The translations under genes and the position numbers were made by a program. A model generated the notes under the pieces. It was not told the origin of the DNA and searched no databases. It saw only the letters and a program-made list of their open reading frames with translations. DNA of 34,906 nucleotides from Rhodospirillales bacterium (GTDB lineage Bacteria > Pseudomonadota > Alphaproteobacteria > TMED109), in contig JAPPED010000006.1 in assembly GCA_028824295.1 (NCBI GenBank), forward strand, positions 1 through 34,906. Direction: 5' to 3'. Positions 11,261 through 19,077 of this stretch are shown one piece after another; the stretch's first letter is position 1, and each line of letters starts with the position of its first letter.

Positions 11261-12337
11261 ATGTTCGTTCAACCGACGGCTGGGTCGAAGGCCGTGAGTG
11301 ACTATGGGCTCGATAGTTGGACAGTGAACGCGCCTCTGACCGGCGTGTGTGTCGAGCGTAGCGGGCAGTTTGCAGCGTTTGCGGGAGGGGACGGCTGCGT
11401 TCGCATTGTTTCCCTTGTTGAACCGGAATCCTCTCTCTCGGTATGGTCACTAACAAAAGGCGCAGTGCTGGCGCTGACCCCCGATTGTCAGGCGCGCGGC
11501 TTCCTGTGTGGGGCCGATGACAGCGCGCTGTACCAAGTCCATCCCATGGATGGACCACGAGAGCTGGCGCTGCTCACCCGTTCTTGGCCAGATCAAGTGG
11601 TCGCGCACCCGCGTGGCCTGCGAGCGGTCTCCGACGGCCCGGAAGTCCGGCTGCTGGACGCCGAGGGCCGGCTGGTCACCGTGCTTGCCGAGCATCCAAG
11701 CACCGTCGCCGGCCTGGCCTTTGACGACAGCGGCCGGCGGCTGGCCGTCTCGCACTACAACGGGGTCAGCCTGTGGACGCTGGACGGGCGAAGCGGTGAG
11801 CCGCAGCGCCTGTGTCATCGAGGCTCACACCTCGATCTAACCTGGAGCAGGAACGGCCGGTTTCTGGTGACGGCCACGCAGGAAAAGACACTGCACGTGT
11901 GGGATCTCGTGTCCGGGCAGGACTCCACGCTCGGGCCGTGCATCAACAAGGTCAAGGCGCTCAGCTGGAGCGCTGACGGATCGTGGCTGCTCGCCTCGGG
12001 GGCCGATACCGTTAGCGGTTGGTCATTCTCGAACGACCGCCTGCCGGCGGCGGCGCCGCACATGCTGGGGCGCTACAGCGAATACCTGATCGGCAATGTT
12101 TGCGCCAACCCCAGCCTCGCCCTGGCGGCGGCCGGGTACAACGATGGCGGTCTTGAGCTGGTGAGCCTGGCGGTTCAGCCGCAGAGGCGGAGCCTGGTCA
12201 GAGCGCCAAGCAGTCCAATCGCAGGCCTCGCGTGGTCCCCGAGCGGGGACCACTTGCTCGGCGGAGACAAGGACGGGCGATTGTTCGCATATCGTTTCGA
12301 TAGCGATTCGCTCGCCCGCCTTGCCTGCACAGATTGA
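11261..12337 (+). CDS. WD40-repeat protein
   Basis: A 358-residue protein built of WD40-like blades. Repeat units are seen near residues 26-52, 148-175, 190-218 (with HVWDLVSG), 231-257 and 320-348, each with a GLAW/ALSW-S-x-DG core. It probably folds as one seven-bladed propeller, with some blades too diverged to count. No signal peptide or catalytic residues are visible, so a scaffold or binding role is likely. The start is uncertain: ATG 11261 or the in-frame GTG 11294 (GAAGG upstream). It lies 254 bp after the COG0523 gene on the same strand, and its end is 6 bp from the convergent cyclase gene. A link to zinc is suggested only by this position. Confidence 0.82.
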   Translation: MFVQPTAGSKAVSDYGLDSWTVNAPLTGVCVERSGQFAAFAGGDGCVRIVSLVEPESSLSVWSLTKGAVLALTPDCQARGFLCGADDSALYQVHPMDGPRELALLTRSWPDQVVAHPRGLRAVSDGPEVRLLDAEGRLVTVLAEHPSTVAGLAFDDSGRRLAVSHYNGVSLWTLDGRSGEPQRLCHRGSHLDLTWSRNGRFLVTATQEKTLHVWDLVSGQDSTLGPCINKVKALSWSADGSWLLASGADTVSGWSFSNDRLPAAAPHMLGRYSEYLIGNVCANPSLALAAAGYNDGGLELVSLAVQPQRRSLVRAPSSPIAGLAWSPSGDHLLGGDKDGRLFAYRFDSDSLARLACTD

Positions 12338-12343
12338 CGTTCG

Positions 12344-13516
12344 CTAGACGACCGCAATCGGGTTGCCCGGTGAACCCGTGGCACCCTTGATCGGCAGCGT
12401 CGAGAAGATGAAGGCGAACTTGTAGACGCCGTCATTGGCCAGATGGTCGAGCCGCACGTTCTCCAGGATGTGGATACCGTTCTTCGGCAGGAAAATCTGG
12501 TGGACGGGGAATGCCAGGTTCGGATCCGGGTTGGGCACGCACTCAATCGCCCAGACGTCGGCCGCACCCACGGAAATTCCCTTGGCTGCGAGCCATTCCG
12601 CCGCGCCCACGCCAATTCCAGGCTCGCCAGAATTGAACCGGGCGTTGTCCTTCATCCACAACTCTTCGCCCCAGCCGGTGCGCCACATGCACGCGCTGCC
12701 TTCAGTGATGTCGGCTTCGCTCATGCCTTGACGTTCCAGGCAGGCCTGCAAGTCGGCGACGGTGATCTCCTCACCCTTGTCCAGCATGCGCCCCTTGAGG
12801 CTCATGACGTCGAACAGGATGCCACGACAGAAGAACGGCTTGACATGTTCCATGCCGAGCGCCTGCAGCCCGTAAGCGCCGGCAGTTGACCCTGCCTCGG
12901 CGTCGTTGTTGTGCAGGTCCTTCGTGGTGAAACCGTTGTAGAAGACCTCCTGGGACAGGTCGCCCGCTTCGCCGATCCGGGCGCCGATGTGGGCGAGTCC
13001 GTCGAACTGCGTGCCGACCTGACCGATTTCGGTGGTCAGGATCTCGTCGTGCCAGATGATCTGGTTCTTGCCGAATGCGCCCCCGGTCGGAGCGCCCGGG
13101 ATCCGCAGCGCAAACACGCGCTGGCCGAACAACGGCATGCCGTACTCGTAGACCCGGCCCAGGCTGTAGACCTTGCCCTTCTTGATCAGGCTAACCGCGT
13201 CCAGCGCCACCTCGGGCGTCATGTGGTTGGTCGAGCCGGTCTGGTCGCCCTCGCCCCAGCGAGACGGCCACCATTTCTCAGCGATCGGCGTACCCTCGAT
13301 ACCGCCTTCGGCGGCGTGTGCAGGCTTCACCAGATCCAGTTCATGCATCACGTCATCGCCGAAGGCGCCGACTGCGGCCGCGCCTGTGGCGATTGTGGCG
13401 GTCTTGATGAACGTGCGGCGGGACTCGGACTCGAGTCCGTCACCATCTTGGGCCTGAACGGACTGTGCGTCCGTATCCTGGTCTTCGGAGTTAATTGGAC
13501 GTTGTTCGTCGCTCAT
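12344..13516 (-). CDS. Tat-exported cyclase-family protein (kynurenine-formamidase-like fold)
   Basis: A 390-residue member of the 'cyclase' metal-dependent hydrolase family, which includes kynurenine formamidase. A hydrophilic lead of about 30 residues is followed by the twin-arginine signal ESRRTFIKTATIATGAAAVGA, so the folded protein is predicted to be exported to the periplasm. The family metal motif appears as GTQFDGLAHIG, with Gln where many formamidases have His. ATG 13516 is chosen because GGGAGGA stands 7 bp upstream; the frame opens a few codons earlier. It is preceded by a strong promoter overlapped by a Zur-like box, so expression in zinc starvation is likely. The substrate is unknown. 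Confidence 0.82.
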   Translation of the reverse strand: MSDEQRPINSEDQDTDAQSVQAQDGDGLESESRRTFIKTATIATGAAAVGAFGDDVMHELDLVKPAHAAEGGIEGTPIAEKWWPSRWGEGDQTGSTNHMTPEVALDAVSLIKKGKVYSLGRVYEYGMPLFGQRVFALRIPGAPTGGAFGKNQIIWHDEILTTEIGQVGTQFDGLAHIGARIGEAGDLSQEVFYNGFTTKDLHNNDAEAGSTAGAYGLQALGMEHVKPFFCRGILFDVMSLKGRMLDKGEEITVADLQACLERQGMSEADITEGSACMWRTGWGEELWMKDNARFNSGEPGIGVGAAEWLAAKGISVGAADVWAIECVPNPDPNLAFPVHQIFLPKNGIHILENVRLDHLANDGVYKFAFIFSTLPIKGATGSPGNPIAVV

Positions 13517-13561
13517 CGCGGTTCCTCCCAACGTAGTGTCGGCCGAAAATGTCCTGTCGAA

Positions 13562-13597
13562 GAAACATTATAACATTTCAACACGGAAAAATGTCAA
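13562..13597 (-). promoter_or_regulatory. promoter with Zur-like box upstream of the cyclase-family gene
   Basis: On the minus strand a perfect -35 TTGACA (13592-13597) and a perfect -10 TATAAT (13567-13572) with an extended TG are separated by 19 bp. The 18-mer GAAATGTTATAATGTTTC (13562-13579) overlaps the -10 and matches the idealised Zur palindrome GAAATGTTATAACATTTC at 16 of 18 positions. Predicted transcription starts near 13560, about 44 bp before the ATG. Occupation of this box would block RNA polymerase, as expected for zinc-dependent repression. Confidence 0.68.
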
Positions 13598-13624
13598 TCC
13601 CCGTCCGTGAAGTTGACCGCAGGG

Positions 13625-13655
13625 CGGCACGGCAAAGCGGCACGGCAAAGCGGCA
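13625..13655. repeat. short tandem repeat, 13-bp unit
   Basis: The unit CGGCACGGCAAAG occurs twice in direct succession (13625-13637, 13638-13650), followed by a partial third copy. It lies between the two minus-strand genes, upstream of the cyclase promoter. It is probably slippage-derived; no function is apparent. Confidence 0.7.
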
Positions 13656-13724
13656 TGATTTTGCAACGGCGCAAGGTGACGGTTGGTTGCATCGCTAGCG
13701 GCAGCAGCAAGACATTCCCTTCCA

Positions 13725-14777
13725 CTAAACCGGTAGCGACGGATCCCGCGCTGCGCGGGCTGCCCGGGCCGCGCGTGCATCGCTCAGGCGCTGAAAATGC
13801 GGTAAGTCCAGGCGCAGGCTGTCTTCAACTGCGGCGCGGTCGAGATTGGAGGTGATGAACAGCAACCGGGAGCGATCGACCGCGGCCTCCGGCAACCACT
13901 GCGGAGGCTGGTAGACATGCTGGACGCCGTTGATAACTACGGGCCCGTCCATGCCCTTGATGTTGATAGCGCCCTTCGTTCGATACATGACGTCGCCGTT
14001 CGACTGCGTGCCGGCGTTCAGCCAGCCGTGCAGGGCCTCCCATTCGAGTGCGTGCGAAAATTCGATCGCGAATCCATGCAGCCCGTTCTCTAGCAGATCG
14101 CTGTTGGCATAGTGCGGCGAGGCCAGCCAGCCGCTCAAATCACCATCCAGCAGTCGTGTTTCCAGGCCTGCCCCGAGCAATGCTTCAGCCAGGAAAGGCT
14201 GATCGGACGGCACGCGGACGGCACCGGGGTTCAATCCCTGCAGCAGGGCGTGTGTTGCCGGATCAGCGCGTGACGCGGTGTCGAGCACGATGCGGTCGGC
14301 CACGGCAAGCTGCTTGAAGCCATACTGTGACCGCGCCAGCGCGTTCAACCGGTTGGCGCCGCCCATGACCGTCACCACGCTGTCGAGCCGAAAGTACTCC
14401 GTGACCAGCGCATTGTTCAGCAACGTTTGCATGATTGGCGCCGGATCAGCATCGGCGAGGGTTTCGATCAACACTTGGTCAAATTCGATTTCGCCCTGAG
14501 CCCGCTGGGCAAACAGCCGGCGCAGGCTGCTGACCAACCCCGAGCGGGTGATACAGCACAAACACCCGATGGCATGCGGCACCATCTGCCCGGCAACACG
14601 GTCGGTCGACGCGGCGGTGAACTCCGGACCGTCGACATCGTTGCTGATCACCGCCCAGCGACCACCGTCCGTTTCCAGCAGGTGTTCAACGGCTTCGGTT
14701 CTTGTACGGGCATCGACCCCGCAGACCACGATCGCCGGCAGCTTGGCTCGGGCAGAGTCAGGGACAAATTTCAGCAT
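13725..14777 (-). CDS. COG0523-like protein lacking the GTP-binding P-loop
   Basis: A 350-residue paralogue of the COG0523 GTPases. The CxCC metal motif is kept (GCLCC, C72, C74, C75), and ETLADADPAPI aligns with the ETTGLADP switch region. The C-terminal CobW_C domain is recognisable near residues 240-335 (KGAINIKGMDGPVVINGVQHVYQ). At the Walker A position the sequence is GVDARTRT (20-27) instead of GFLGSGKT, with no lysine, and no NKxD motif is seen near 163-170. It therefore probably cannot hydrolyse GTP in the usual way. ATG 14777 has AGGTGA 8 bp upstream; the frame opens at 14828. It lies 141 bp after znuA on the same strand and may be the last gene of the zur-znu unit. Confidence 0.85.
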   Translation of the reverse strand: MLKFVPDSARAKLPAIVVCGVDARTRTEAVEHLLETDGGRWAVISNDVDGPEFTAASTDRVAGQMVPHAIGCLCCITRSGLVSSLRRLFAQRAQGEIEFDQVLIETLADADPAPIMQTLLNNALVTEYFRLDSVVTVMGGANRLNALARSQYGFKQLAVADRIVLDTASRADPATHALLQGLNPGAVRVPSDQPFLAEALLGAGLETRLLDGDLSGWLASPHYANSDLLENGLHGFAIEFSHALEWEALHGWLNAGTQSNGDVMYRTKGAINIKGMDGPVVINGVQHVYQPPQWLPEAAVDRSRLLFITSNLDRAAVEDSLRLDLPHFQRLSDARAARAARAARDPSLPV

Positions 14778-14801
14778 GGTTGGTTCACCTGAACAGTGCA
14801 G

Positions 14802-14819
14802 GGACGAGACCGCTCGTCC
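14802..14819 (-). terminator. hairpin between znuA and the COG0523-like gene
   Basis: A perfect 7-bp stem, GGACGAG with CTCGTCC, with a 4-base loop lies 100 bp downstream of znuA. No T-tract follows, so it may only attenuate read-through or protect the upstream mRNA's 3' end. Confidence 0.3.
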
Positions 14820-14918
14820 GGTTGTCAACGGGGTGTTGTGGTCCGGTTGGCAAGGGCGAATGCCCCGGACGGCCAGCCTTGCGGGGTACCGGCAAGCGCG
14901 CGCTCATCTGATGATCAG

Positions 14919-15824
14919 TCAAGCCGACAGCGCCCGTGCAAGCGTCATCGCGTTGTAACGCATCATGTCGAGATAGGTGGACGCAGGACCGTCAGGTCCG
15001 GACAGCGCATCGGAGTAGAGCGTCCCGCCGATGGAAGCCCCGGTTTCGTTGGTGATCTGCTCGAGGAGACGCGAATCGGTGATCGCTTCGAGAAAGACGG
15101 CCTCGATCCTCTCTTGACGGATCTGCCGGATCAGCGTGGCGACGTCCGTTGCAGACGCCTCGCTTTCCGTGCTGACGCCATGGGGTGCCACAAAGTGCAG
15201 ACCGTAGGCTTCGGAAAAGTATCCGAAGGCGTCGTGGGACGTCACGACGGTACGCCGGTCCGCTGGCAGCCCCGCGAACAGCTCGCGGATTTCCGCCTCC
15301 AGCGCCTCGATTTCGGCCACATAGGCAGCACGGTTCCGGTAGTAGAAATCCGCGTTCTCCGGATCAGAGGTAGCCAGTGCCCCCGTGATGTTGTCGACGT
15401 AGACCAATGCGTTTGCAAGGCTCTGCCAAGCATGCGGGTCGAAGGCGTCGTGGTAGTCGTGATCGGCAAGCGCGATTGGCTCAATTCCCTCGCTTGCCAC
15501 CACGCGGACGCCAGCAAAGTGCGATGCCTCGACGAGTCGATCCAGCCAGCCTTCGAATGAGAGGCCATTGACCACGAGGATCTCGGCCTGGCTCACGGCG
15601 CGCGCATCTTCCGGGACCGGCTGGTACACATGGGCGTCGCCGTTGGGCCCCACGAGCATGGTGACGGCCACCTTTCCCCCCCCAATGCGCTCAACCATGT
15701 CTCCAAGAATTGAGAAGGTGGCGACGACCGGGATGGGCCCGGCGGACCAGGCCAGCGTTGGACCGGTCAACACAAGGACGAAAAGAGCCGTCGCTGCTTT
15801 CAGCAGGTTTCTGCGGTCGAGCAT
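14919..15824 (-). CDS. znuA: zinc/manganese ABC transporter substrate-binding protein
   Basis: A periplasmic metal-binding lipoprotein-like or soluble receptor of the cluster A-I family, 301 residues. The signal sequence is about residues 1-28 (RRNLLKAATALFVLVLTGPTLAWSAG). Metal ligands by pattern are H65 (DAHVYQP), H131 (DPHAWQS), H197 (SHDAFGYF) and D272 (YSDALSG). Three histidines plus Asp is the ZnuA/TroA set, favouring zinc over the His2-Glu-Asp manganese set. Only a short acidic His stretch (ADHDYHDAFDPH) replaces the long His-rich loop of E. coli ZnuA. It is the last transporter gene in zur - 44-codon gene - znuC - znuB - znuA, 12 bp after znuB. Confidence 0.92.
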   Translation of the reverse strand: MLDRRNLLKAATALFVLVLTGPTLAWSAGPIPVVATFSILGDMVERIGGGKVAVTMLVGPNGDAHVYQPVPEDARAVSQAEILVVNGLSFEGWLDRLVEASHFAGVRVVASEGIEPIALADHDYHDAFDPHAWQSLANALVYVDNITGALATSDPENADFYYRNRAAYVAEIEALEAEIRELFAGLPADRRTVVTSHDAFGYFSEAYGLHFVAPHGVSTESEASATDVATLIRQIRQERIEAVFLEAITDSRLLEQITNETGASIGGTLYSDALSGPDGPASTYLDMMRYNAMTLARALSA

Positions 15825-15836
15825 CGGAATTTCTAG

Positions 15837-16703
15837 CTAGGCTTCAGCGTGACGATACGGATGGACCCGTGCGACAAAGCTGCCCGTCGGTCCGAAGGTG
15901 AGCGACAGCCCGTACGCGAAACCCGCTGCGAGGATGATTGCCGGTCCGGACGGCAGCCCGAAATGGTAGGAAACAAGGAGACCGCAGACGCTCGCGGCCA
16001 CGGCGATAGTGACCGCGGTGAGGATGAGCCCGCCTATGCTGACGGCCCAAAACCGCGCGGCAGCGGCCGGAACAATCATGATGCCGACGACCATCAGGGT
16101 GCCGAGCGCGTGGAAGCCACCGACGAGGTTCAGGACGACAAGCGCGAGAAACGTGAAATGAGTCACGGCGCTCAGCCTGCTCACTGCCCGCAGGAACTGC
16201 GGATCCGCGCACTCAAGGACCAGTGGGCGGAACAGAAGTGCAAGCGCCAGCAGCGTGATGCTCGCGATGCTGCACAACAGAATCAACGCCGAGTTGTTGA
16301 GCGCAAGCACCGTGCCAAAGAGCACGTGCATCAGGTCGACGTTGCTGCCGCGGGTGGACACGATCAGCACGCCAAGCGCCAGCGAGATCAGGTAGAAGGC
16401 CGCGAGGCTCGCATCTTCCCGCAGCGCCGTGACGCGGGTGACGAAGCCCGAAAGCAGCGCGACGGCAATGCCCGCCAACAGCCCGCCTATCGTCATGGCC
16501 CCGAGCGAGAGTCCCGCTACGAGATAACCGACCGCCGCGCCGGGCAGGATCGCGTGCGCCATCGCATCGCCGGTCAGGCTCATCCTGCGCAGCAGCAGAA
16601 AGACGCCCACGGGCGTGGCGCCCACTGAGATTGCGATGCAACCCAGCATTGCACGGCGCATGAAGCCAAATTCGACGAACGGTTCAACCAGCGCTTCCCA
16701 CAT
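15837..16703 (-). CDS. znuB: zinc ABC transporter permease
   Basis: Inner-membrane permease of the ABC-3 family, 288 residues, with about eight or nine hydrophobic segments. The family motif region SLTGDAMAHAILPGAAVGYL (residues 42-61) is the typical ABC-3 signature, and GGFHALGTLMVVGIMIVPAAAARF is the conserved late segment. The ATG at 16703 overlaps the znuC stop by one base (TAATG), so the two genes are translated together. It would form the channel for zinc delivered by ZnuA, powered by ZnuC. Confidence 0.94.
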   Translation of the reverse strand: MWEALVEPFVEFGFMRRAMLGCIAISVGATPVGVFLLLRRMSLTGDAMAHAILPGAAVGYLVAGLSLGAMTIGGLLAGIAVALLSGFVTRVTALREDASLAAFYLISLALGVLIVSTRGSNVDLMHVLFGTVLALNNSALILLCSIASITLLALALLFRPLVLECADPQFLRAVSRLSAVTHFTFLALVVLNLVGGFHALGTLMVVGIMIVPAAAARFWAVSIGGLILTAVTIAVAASVCGLLVSYHFGLPSGPAIILAAGFAYGLSLTFGPTGSFVARVHPYRHAEA

Positions 16704-17446
16704 TACGAAGCGTATCTCCCGCAGTCATGGGGCGGGCCGACACATGCCTCGCACATCTGGCGGGCACGGAACTGGTTCGCCGCCGTCAGCACCTCTGCCG
16801 TGGGGCCGTGCGCCACGAGATCACGCGCCAGTATCAACGTCTCAGGAAAATGCTCCCGGACCGTCTCTGCATCATGCAGAACGGCGATCACCGTGCGCCC
16901 CTCGCCATGCCAGCGCTGCACCACACCCAGGAGATCAATCATTGTCTTGGCATCGATCGCCGTGAACGGTTCGTCGAGTAGCACGAGCCGCGCGTCCTGA
17001 AGCAAGAGCCGAGCGAAAAGCGCCCGCTGAAGCTGTCCGCCCGACAGCGAACCGACGGGTCGGGACTCAAACCCGGTGAGACCGACGGCGGAAATGGCAT
17101 CGTCGACCCGGGCACGAAGTGCGGCGCGCAGCCCGAAGAATCCGCCAATCTCACTCCAGAGACCCACAGCCACCAGATCGACGACCGTGATCGGAAACGA
17201 CTGATCGATGTCCGATTGCTGCGGCAAGTAGGCGATATCGCTCCGGGTACAGGTTCCGAAGTCGACCCTCCCTGCCAGCGGACGCAATGCGCCCGTCATC
17301 CCCTTCAGCAGTGTCGATTTGCCCGCACCGTTGGGCCCTACAACGGCGGTCAGACTGCCGTCGGCAACCTCGCCATCAAGCTGGCGTACCGCCGGATGCC
17401 GGTCGTATCCGAGGGTCAACTCCTCAAATGCAACAGCGTAGGTCAT
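16703..17446 (-). CDS. znuC: zinc ABC transporter ATP-binding protein
   Basis: A 247-residue ATPase of the metal-uptake ABC transporters. Walker A GPNGAGKST is at 37-45, the Q-loop near LPQQ at 74-77, the signature LSGGQ at 134-138, and Walker B LVLLDEP at 154-160. A switch histidine follows in VLHDAE. ATG 17446 is chosen because it overlaps the stop of the preceding 44-codon gene as ATGA and has GGGGAG upstream. A longer frame to 17488 would overlap that small gene and adds no family-like residues. It is part of the zur-znu operon. Confidence 0.94.
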   Translation of the reverse strand: MTYAVAFEELTLGYDRHPAVRQLDGEVADGSLTAVVGPNGAGKSTLLKGMTGALRPLAGRVDFGTCTRSDIAYLPQQSDIDQSFPITVVDLVAVGLWSEIGGFFGLRAALRARVDDAISAVGLTGFESRPVGSLSGGQLQRALFARLLLQDARLVLLDEPFTAIDAKTMIDLLGVVQRWHGEGRTVIAVLHDAETVREHFPETLILARDLVAHGPTAEVLTAANQFRARQMCEACVGPPHDCGRYAS

Positions 17447-17577
17447 TGGCTCCCCGGTGTGGAGGTCGCCCAGAAAAATGCGGCCCAAAGCGCCATGACG
17501 AACAGTACCGCTACGGCGAGCCGTGGACCGACTCCCACGAGAAGCACCCTACCGGCCACGTGGCGCCAGACTTTCAT
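17443..17577 (-). CDS. 44-residue single-span membrane protein inside the zur-znu operon
   Basis: A short gene not matching any family I know. It encodes a basic N terminus (MKVWRHVAGR), then a hydrophobic stretch of about 25 residues with two tryptophans (LAVAVLFVMALWAAFFWAT), and a short tail. This predicts one transmembrane helix with the N terminus in the cytoplasm. Its ATG overlaps the zur stop (ATGA) and its own TGA overlaps the znuC ATG (ATGA), so it fits exactly between the two and should be translationally coupled to both. It fills what would otherwise be a 127-bp gap in a compact operon. It could be an accessory subunit of the ZnuBC permease or a coupling leader; function is unknown. 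Confidence 0.68.
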   Translation of the reverse strand: MKVWRHVAGRVLLVGVGPRLAVAVLFVMALWAAFFWATSTPGSQ

Positions 17578-17975
17578 GCTTGATCCTCTGCTGATCCGCA
17601 GCTTGCGCACTGGCCGTGGACCTCAATCACGTGGCGTGTCGGTGCGAAGCCCGACTGTCCCGCGATGCTGGACAGCTCCCTCAGCAGGTCCGGTGCGACG
17701 AATTCCTCGACCTCCCCGCAATCATCACAGATCGAGAGAATCGACGCGTCTTTATGCGAATGTGACTTGCAGGCGATAAAGGCATTAAGGGATTCAAGAC
17801 GGTGCACGCCGCCGCGCTCCGTCAACGCTGCCAGGGCACGATAGATGGTTGGCGGTGCAAGCTGAGGGTTACTGTCACGCAATTGGCCAAGTACCTCGTA
17901 AGCGGACATTGGAGTACCGCGACGCCGCAAGATGGCAAGCACCTCCGCCTGCATGATCTCGCCACGCTTTTTCAT
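17574..17975 (-). CDS. zur: zinc uptake regulator, Fur family
   Basis: A 133-residue Fur-family repressor that binds DNA when zinc is plentiful. The winged helix spans about 1-60, with the recognition segment APPTIYRALAALTERG. Structural zinc cysteines are C83, C86 (CDDC), C123 and C126 (CASC). Regulatory-site candidates include H72 and H74 (SHSHKD), and H115 and H120. Start ATG 17975 has GAGGA about 5 bp upstream. It is the first gene of the operon leading into the znu genes, so it is likely autoregulated through the box at 18029-18046. Zur rather than Fur is chosen because of the znuCBA linkage. Confidence 0.93.
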   Translation of the reverse strand: MKKRGEIMQAEVLAILRRRGTPMSAYEVLGQLRDSNPQLAPPTIYRALAALTERGGVHRLESLNAFIACKSHSHKDASILSICDDCGEVEEFVAPDLLRELSSIAGQSGFAPTRHVIEVHGQCASCGSAEDQA

Positions 17976-18014
17976 GCGATCCTCGCGCTCAGTCCCAGAG
18001 TCGCTCAGCCCCGA

Positions 18015-18046
18015 AGTAAAGTGTGTTTGTTATGTTATATCAAGCC
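18015..18046 (-). promoter_or_regulatory. zur-znu operon promoter with Zur-like box
   Basis: On the minus strand -35 TTGATA (18038-18043) and -10 TTTACT (18015-18020) are exactly 17 bp apart. Predicted transcription starts near 18008, about 33 bp before the zur ATG. The AT-rich stretch GTTATGTTATATCAAGCC (plus strand, 18029-18046) overlaps the -35 and spacer. It contains the core ATGTTATA, also present in the cyclase promoter, and one good Zur half-site (TATAACATAAC read on the minus strand). Confidence 0.62.
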
Positions 18047-18582
18047 CGTGGTGAATTCGTGACGTTCCCCACCGAACCAGGAACACTGATTGCCAAGAAG
18101 TTCACGATCGGGTTTTCCGGGCCGCACGGGGTAGCGGCGGCCGAGCAGCCGAAATTCAGGGAGCAGTCGATCGCGTTCATCCGCGGGCAGGCGGAGATTG
18201 CCGTAGGCCGCACTGGTTGTTTCAGTGGCGGAACTTGCCGGGGCTTTCGCCCGGGAGCGCTGGCGTAGGCGGCCGCCGGCTCCGTTTGGCGGTTCCCGAG
18301 GCGGCGGTGAAGCCGGCTCGTGCACCAGCCGGCTCCCGCTGCAGGACAGGTACGAGACCGACTCGTCCGGCGGTGCCGGGAACGGCCGGAGCAGCCCGGT
18401 CTGCGCCCGGCCCGGACAGCGCTCGTCAACGCGACACAACTGCTGACGAAGATGGCGCGGCAGTGTTCTCGAGCGCTCCTGTACCTCGGCGACGGCAGTG
18501 CCGGACATGGCTCGCTATTGTTACCGGACGCTAACCTCCTGGCACGTTCGTCCGACGCGCGATCAGCCACAGGAGATGACGC
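18047..18582. other. 536-bp region between the zur promoter and the DinB gene
   Basis: Open frames exist on both strands (for example minus 18035-18508), but none has a recognisable domain, and their arginine/proline-rich composition is that of random GC-rich frames. The stretch near 18050-18220 is lower in GC and could be gene debris; I cannot name a parent. AGGAGA at 18569-18574 is the ribosome-binding site of the DinB gene. Confidence 0.5.
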
Positions 18583-19077
18583 ATGTTCCTGTCCCACTTC
18601 GCGACGCTGGCCGCCTATAACCGTTGGGCCAACGCCCGCCTCTATGACGCGTGTGCAGGCTTGAGCGACGCGGCCCGCAAGCTCGACCGCCGGGCGTTCT
18701 TTGGCTCGATCCACAACACGCTGAACCACATCCTCGTAGGCGATCGCGTCTGGCTGGACCGCGTCGAGGAAATTGATCCCGGCGCGGTCGCGCTCGACAC
18801 TGTGCTGTTCGACGATTTTGCCTCGCTGCGCAACGCTCGAACGGTCGAAGACGAGCGAGTTGACCGAGTGCTCGCACGCATGGACGAAGCTCGCATGGCC
18901 GGCGATCTCGTCTACCGCAACGTAGCGGGCATCCGGTACCGCACGCCGATGCGCCTGGTATTCACACATCTCTTCAATCACCAAGCGCACCATCGCGGCC
19001 AGGTGCACGACATGCTGAGCCAGGCTGGTGCCTCGCCGCCTGAACTGGATCTGATCTACTACGTCCGAACGCTCTAG
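18583..19077 (+). CDS. DinB-family protein
   Basis: A 164-residue four-helix-bundle protein of the DinB/YfiT type, often thiol- or metal-dependent transferases or hydrolases of unknown substrate. The expected histidine triad is visible: H49 in SIHNTLNHILVGD, and H133 with H137 in FNHQAHHRGQ, which normally hold a divalent metal. The start MFLSHFATLAAYNRWAN is characteristic, and AGGAGA lies 8 bp upstream. It stands alone, transcribed away from zur. DinB proteins bind zinc or nickel, but no Zur-like box is visible near this start. Confidence 0.9.
   Translation: MFLSHFATLAAYNRWANARLYDACAGLSDAARKLDRRAFFGSIHNTLNHILVGDRVWLDRVEEIDPGAVALDTVLFDDFASLRNARTVEDERVDRVLARMDEARMAGDLVYRNVAGIRYRTPMRLVFTHLFNHQAHHRGQVHDMLSQAGASPPELDLIYYVRTL

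Follow-up and report, generated by a model that had tools for sequence, protein, structure and literature searches.

What controls the zinc-uptake genes of this alphaproteobacterial contig, and does the exported enzyme encoded beside them answer to the same regulator? The window, by which we mean the whole stretch of 34,906 nucleotides analyzed here, carries on its minus strand, in this order, a zur gene, three azt-like ABC transporter genes, a COG0523 gene and, after a gap, a gene for a Tat-signal cyclase. The zur product (17574-17975, 133 aa) is a Fur family protein of Zur type with a short N-terminus, matching Pfam FUR (6.2e-13) and E. coli Zur (4mtd, 1.3e-24). It is followed by an aztA-like zinc ABC ATPase (16703-17488; NCBIfam AztA 222 bits, above the cut-off of 220), an aztB-like zinc ABC permease (15837-16703; AztB 267.1 bits, below the cut-off of 280) and an aztC/znuA-like zinc-binding protein (14919-15824; Pfam ZnuA 1.7e-87, AztC 310.1 bits, below the cut-off of 350), then by the CobW-family COG0523 GTPase (13725-14828; Pfam cobW and CobW_C) and the PF04199 cyclase-family protein (12344-13516, its start placed at a conserved ATG; Pfam Cyclase 8.2e-18, Tat TIGR01409 5e-5). 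The original prediction had spoken of a znu operon; a zinc-uptake ABC system is encoded here, but it resembles azt more than znu in the strict sense. A search of viral contigs with AztA yielded no relative.

Judging from sequence comparison, the segment 18015-18046 very probably comprises the promoter and a Zur operator of a zur-aztABC-COG0523 zinc-uptake operon, with the cyclase gene likewise under Zur control. The 17-bp spaced promoter pair that had been read by hand is present on the minus strand as a −35 hexamer TTGATA (18038-18043) and a −10 hexamer TTTACT (18015-18020), which together match 9 of 12 consensus positions, score best of all pairs from the zur start out to 18200 and are identical in three genomes. 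These predicted hexamers, the −10 in particular, are weak, and a stricter promoter scan requiring A at position 2 of the −10 returned nothing in 12300-19000. The octamer ATGTTATA, said to overlap the pair and to recur at the cyclase promoter, has just two occurrences in the window, 18032-18039 (plus strand) and 13569-13576 (minus strand), where 0.01 would be expected; none of 100 window shuffles contains it twice. The whole 3.02-Mb, 35-contig genome contains 10 copies spread over 8 places, 6 of the copies forward and 4 reverse, against 2 + 1 for the reversed control. When the window is aligned with its same-genus relatives G002 and G004, 18014-18044 forms an uninterrupted block of 31 invariant columns out of 31, the longest such run among 225 noncoding columns of which 149 are invariant (permutation P 7e-5), and it nearly coincides with the interval 18015-18046 first singled out. 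Conservation in the same alignment is 30/38 between block and gene, 39/54 over 18047-18100 and 48/100 over 18101-18200.

An independent motif was derived from 46 alphaproteobacterial zur loci, one per genome and some sharing a genus, with the window's genus excluded and no input from the window. Because an initial de novo run picked up nothing but the conserved segment encoding the recognition helix, we masked the coding part of zur before searching for palindromic 18-mers. The resulting motif, GATATGTTATAACATATC, reached a best set score of 363.9, compared with 238-252 in 4 shuffled sets; 23 of the 46 training loci score at least 14, and the 24 best served to refine the matrix. Applied to the window, this matrix ranks the box at the cyclase promoter first (25.3 bits) and the box at the zur promoter second (17.0 bits). 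Next come offset registers of the same two boxes, 13.95 for zur and 4.65 for the cyclase, with unrelated sites at 3.62 or less. Simulated DNA with the window's dinucleotides gives 0.0017 sites of at least 17.0 bits per 34.9-kb window, a figure based on one match in about 20 Mb, and of 1000 column-permuted motifs 17 attain 17.0 anywhere in the window and 2 attain it at a second site.

Simpler consensus searches of the genome were less discriminating. A loose 13-mer search allowing up to one mismatch gave 9 matches and its reversed control 8, while a loose 18-mer search gave 27 and its control 36; these counts are close to or below their controls, and they served only as candidate lists for scoring. 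A stricter 18-mer search gave 5 matches vs. 0 in the control, with the zur-promoter site absent from its list. Among the sequence searches, only the octamer, the stricter 18-mer and the matrix separate the sites from chance.

The anatomy of the zur-promoter box can be read through the E. coli protein, in which each Zur dimer reads RNNNYxxxRNNNY and two overlapping dimers make up an 18-bp element (PMC4219657); this motif geometry accounts for the 5-bp offset between the two dimers. The best 18-bp register, GTTATGTTATATCAAGCC, lies at 18029-18046 (plus strand), and an overlapping second register, TGTTTGTTATGTTATATC, offset by 5 bp, lies at 18024-18041 (plus strand). The best-preserved dimer site is the 13-mer GTTAT-GTT-ATATC at 18029-18041, that is GTTATGTTATATC, whose arms are both good and which agrees with the perfect form GTTATnnnATAAC at 9 of 10 positions; ATGTTATA straddles its center. 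On either side of this 13-mer the second register is eroded (18029-18046 or 18024-18041). The second half-site had been described as degenerate, and because both arms of the central 13-mer are good, that description applies to the outer dimer alone. The published proteobacterial motif GTTA-5N-TAAC (PMC4176598) is matched at 7 of 8 positions by the zur site, a score that 2 of 600 random stretches equal. Both window sites fit the skeleton of two dimers from E. coli, RNNNYRNNRYNNYRNNNY (PMC4219657), at 8/8, although at the zur site this is equalled by 72 of 600 random stretches. No random stretch of 600 equals the zur site's matches to the Zur 18-mer and 13-mer. The box overlies the predicted −35 along with most of the spacer, 53 bp upstream of the zur start, and thus overlaps the predicted promoter elements of a zinc-uptake gene cluster.

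At the cyclase promoter, the box GAAATGTTATAATGTTTC (13562-13579, minus strand) covers a perfect predicted −10, TATAAT (13567-13572), 19 bp from a predicted −35, TTGACA (13592-13597), both on the minus strand and both invariant in 4 of 4 aligned genomes. Since a like box sits on the cyclase −10, we propose that operon and cyclase are both Zur-controlled. The suggestion that the operon is repressed more weakly than the cyclase agrees with box scores in the window, G002 and G004 (17.0-18.3 for zur vs. 25.3-27.5 for the cyclase), but in sister loci the order is reversed, with for example 23.5 for the zur box and 9.4 for the cyclase, so the order of strength is not conserved. Moreover, scores are not affinities: in the E. 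coli study, motif score did not predict affinity, and znuABC, put at the top by the matrix, was among the weakest in affinity (PMC4219657). The ranking of the two window sites is for this reason only a hint that repression of the operon may be the weaker.

Do relatives keep this arrangement? A scan of genome contigs by cyclase alignment was examined for the best 80 of 472 loci (L114-L193), many of them close relatives, and 10 of these 80 contain a zur hit. All six loci with a zur of at least 66% identity (5 genomes) have a box of 16.3-23.5 bits lying 27-53 bp before the start of the zur hit, so the operator is kept at orthologous promoters. Among the four more distant zur loci, L133 also keeps one ahead of zur, L124 has it ahead of COG0523 and not of zur, and L126 and L127 show none above 15 other than at the cyclase promoter. 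The motif is thus present at promoters of zur and of COG0523 in relatives. Two gene layouts recur: COG0523 trails the azt genes in the window, L114 and L125, while zur and COG0523 diverge around one box in L118, L120, L128 and L131, where the cyclase promoters score low (9.4, 10.3, 6.7 and −1.5). In another member of the window's genus (G003, L032:189-3184), the zur orthologue looks broken, its recognition-helix and cysteine motifs gone in the matching frame, and aztC falls into two matching pieces behind a box of 19.3 bits; an assembly error is possible.

Zur-type boxes of at least 16 bits lie upstream of the cyclase in 10 of the 79 scorable loci among the best 80 of 472. Boxed cyclase promoters, those of G094 and G237 from a search of the class included, are found at L106/L109, L100/L110, L114, L115, L116, L117, L119, L123, L124, L125, L159 and L179, so the link between Zur and the cyclase is not limited to the window's genus. 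One pattern that looked Zur-like, the Reyranella-type repeat CATATGTAACAA-GTAAC in the COG0523/cyclase spacer, was not counted as Zur because a related pattern occurs once in genome G305 and not at all in G306; the repeat is shared by loci L144, L146, L153, L166, L171, L175 and others. A de novo search of 48 divergent COG0523/cyclase spacers returned as its top motif a palindrome around CCATGG (421), probably the start-codon region, and placed the Zur-like seed GACATGTTACAACGTATC eighth (318 vs. 421).

Other boxes in the same genome, drawn from pattern searches so that their counts are lower bounds, include several at zinc genes. Contig C16 has a box of 29.9 upstream of zur2-aztC2-COG0523, C20 one of 28.1 upstream of the remnant of a COG0523 gene, behind which lie genes for a TonB receptor and a PepSY protein, C8 one of 25.0 upstream of zur3, and C15 one of 16.8 upstream of zrgA, which is accompanied by genes for an ABC ATPase and a permease of FtsX/MacB type. 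A weaker box (16.2) is found at C4:27436. The C20 receptor's NCBIfam match is of siderophore-receptor type, and its role in zinc uptake would accordingly be an inferred one. A strong box at C15:104754 (23.7; L053:5255-5272) has no obvious zinc gene adjoining it, so a box alone is no proof of a target; our reading of the open reading frames places a HicB/HicA-like pair about 730 bp away. The remnant on C20 is a 119-aa reading frame (L054:5223-5582) between a near-perfect Zur box and the TonB receptor and includes a degraded stretch of COG0523 (48% over 52 residues). In the C16 cluster (L057:5563-10011), aztC2 has a His-rich insert and an ISAZ013-type transposase adjoins, and the cluster may be mobile. 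The independent motif, the relatives' promoters and the zinc genes of this genome agree in pointing to a common Zur-type regulator of the zur and cyclase promoters, as had been proposed from the two cores.

Whether that regulator is the adjacent Zur itself is a separate matter. The window protein scores 103.3 bits with the NCBIfam Zur model and at most 38 with Fur and PerR models; it falls below the Zur equivalog cut-off of 167 bits, but this cut-off is attained by 0 of 241 class genomes and 1 of 14 controls and is unsuited to the class. All four structural zinc cysteines align (Cys103, 106, 143 and 146), the sensor site keeps equivalents of His77, Cys88 and Glu111 (3 of 4) with Asp at the His96 position and His residues nearby, and the base-reading Tyr45 and Arg65 are aligned. 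What the protein lacks are the N-terminal backbone contacts Thr25, Gln27 and Arg28, replaced by Glu, Met and Gln, an absence its close orthologues share. Among 44 class Zurs (the 46 loci minus 2 without a usable frame), Thr25 is present in 42 and Arg28 in 38; Thr25 is absent from the window Zur, its orthologues and G092. With base-reading, structural and most sensor residues kept but the N-terminus short, a Zur operator is well supported and autoregulation likely; of the original description of an autoregulated zur promoter, the Zur-type operator stands, and self-repression by the adjacent product is the part left in some doubt.

That doubt has a concrete source, for the genome encodes four Zur-like proteins (Fur-family matches at E ≤1e-10 on C6, the contig of the window, and on C8, C15 and C16, all fitting NCBIfam Zur at 96-103 bits), the most in our list, in which the other 149 matching genomes have 1-3 each; G004, of the same genus and outside that list, has 7 matches to the window Zur. 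It is possible, if on balance doubtful, that a canonical paralogue from C16, C8 or C15 is the main reader of the site and that the window Zur binds weakly, as part of mixed dimers or not at all. Such cross-regulation would suit the presence of Thr25 and Arg28 in all three paralogues and the stronger boxes at zur2 and zur3. Against it, the short Zur retains the base-reading, sensor and structural residues named above, and two relatives have it at about 95% identity, adjoining the conserved box. In the paralogues on C16 and C8, moreover, Ser replaces His77, and motif scoring showed no box at the zur promoter of C15.

Readings that deny the site to Zur altogether fare much worse. Fur-family boxes share AT-rich palindromes, and an Irr consensus box fits the cyclase site at 10 of 14 positions (a figure without a random-stretch comparison), which would suit an iron regulator such as Fur, Irr or RirA. 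At the zur site, however, consensus boxes compared with 600 random 51-bp stretches of the window fit no better than many of those stretches, at 9/19 for Fur (163/600), 7/14 for Irr (140/600) and 5/6 for RirA (76/600), and the operon downstream is a zinc operon; we rejected this reading as very improbable. Just as improbable is a chance AT-rich promoter sequence with no operator role, for although promoters are AT-rich and ATGTTATA contains TATA, only about 0.002 such sites are expected per 34.9-kb window, the site is conserved at orthologous promoters, and the genome's boxes form a coherent regulon. On the favored Zur reading, Zur loaded with zinc, as one dimer or as two that overlap, would bind GTTATGTTATATC and its flanks, sit over the −35 hexamer and spacer and block RNA polymerase; as zinc falls, Zur would release the site and the genes from zur through COG0523 would be expressed, presumably as one transcript.

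A Zur operator here would be ordinary control for such genes and a new instance of a known operator class; the published work drawn on comprises PMC4176598, PMC6103462, PMC5387054, PMC4219657 and PMC2770081. The GTTA-5N-TAAC core (PMC4176598) and an alphaproteobacterial 15-mer such as GTAATGTAATAACAT, found at zur/znuA, aztA and COG0523 promoters (PMC5387054, Table 7), recur here at the same gene classes as in Caulobacter crescentus and Paracoccus denitrificans, but the window places zur, aztABC and COG0523 consecutively after one box and has another box of its own on the gene for the Tat cyclase. With the E. coli operators (znuABC, zinT, L31p and pliG) the site shares the 18-bp skeleton of two overlapping dimers, and the weaker-looking site at the uptake operon recalls the weaker binding of znuC relative to L31p and zinT (PMC4219657); unlike E. 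coli Zur, the window protein has Gly at Asp49, which forms the inter-dimer salt bridge, and lacks the N-terminal arm residues. In the clusters of Zur and COG0523 paralogues of Haas et al. 2009 (PMC2770081), too, Zur, zinc ABC, COG0523 and an enzyme gene stand under Zur boxes, but the enzyme of the window belongs to the PF04199 cyclases and carries a Tat signal. The text of Haas et al. showed neither the word "cyclase" nor "formamidase", and a literature search across titles and abstract openings of the papers listed, subscription papers aside, turned up no Zur-controlled cyclase or kynurenine formamidase and no COG0523-cyclase pairing.

The less ordinary features are the Zur-boxed, Tat-exported cyclase and its frequent COG0523 neighbor. 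Among the best 80 of 472 loci, COG0523 adjoins the cyclase in 61 (48 divergent, 13 on the same strand), including loci of Bradyrhizobium, Reyranella and Skermanella. To our knowledge the client proteins of the COG0523 family are mostly not established, and such frequent adjacency suggests a chaperone-client pair. We abandoned the idea that Zur-boxed cyclases are missing metal ligands that their Zur-free paralogues kept, as GQ.GTQFD occurs in nearly all boxed and unboxed members. More speculatively, and with a probability we would put as low, the COG0523 GTPase may load or spare metal for the Tat-exported PF04199 cyclase, this conserved pair having been drawn into the Zur regulon here under a shortened Zur beside three canonical paralogues, with mixed dimers, for example, tuning a weak uptake operator against a strong enzyme operator.

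Through these tests an octamer read by hand has become a candidate Zur operator, and an uncultured alphaproteobacterial lineage gains a small, coherent candidate zinc regulon. Two oddities stand out: a 3-Mb genome encodes four Zur-like proteins, of which one lacks the usual arm for DNA contact, and an exported cyclase has a Zur box.
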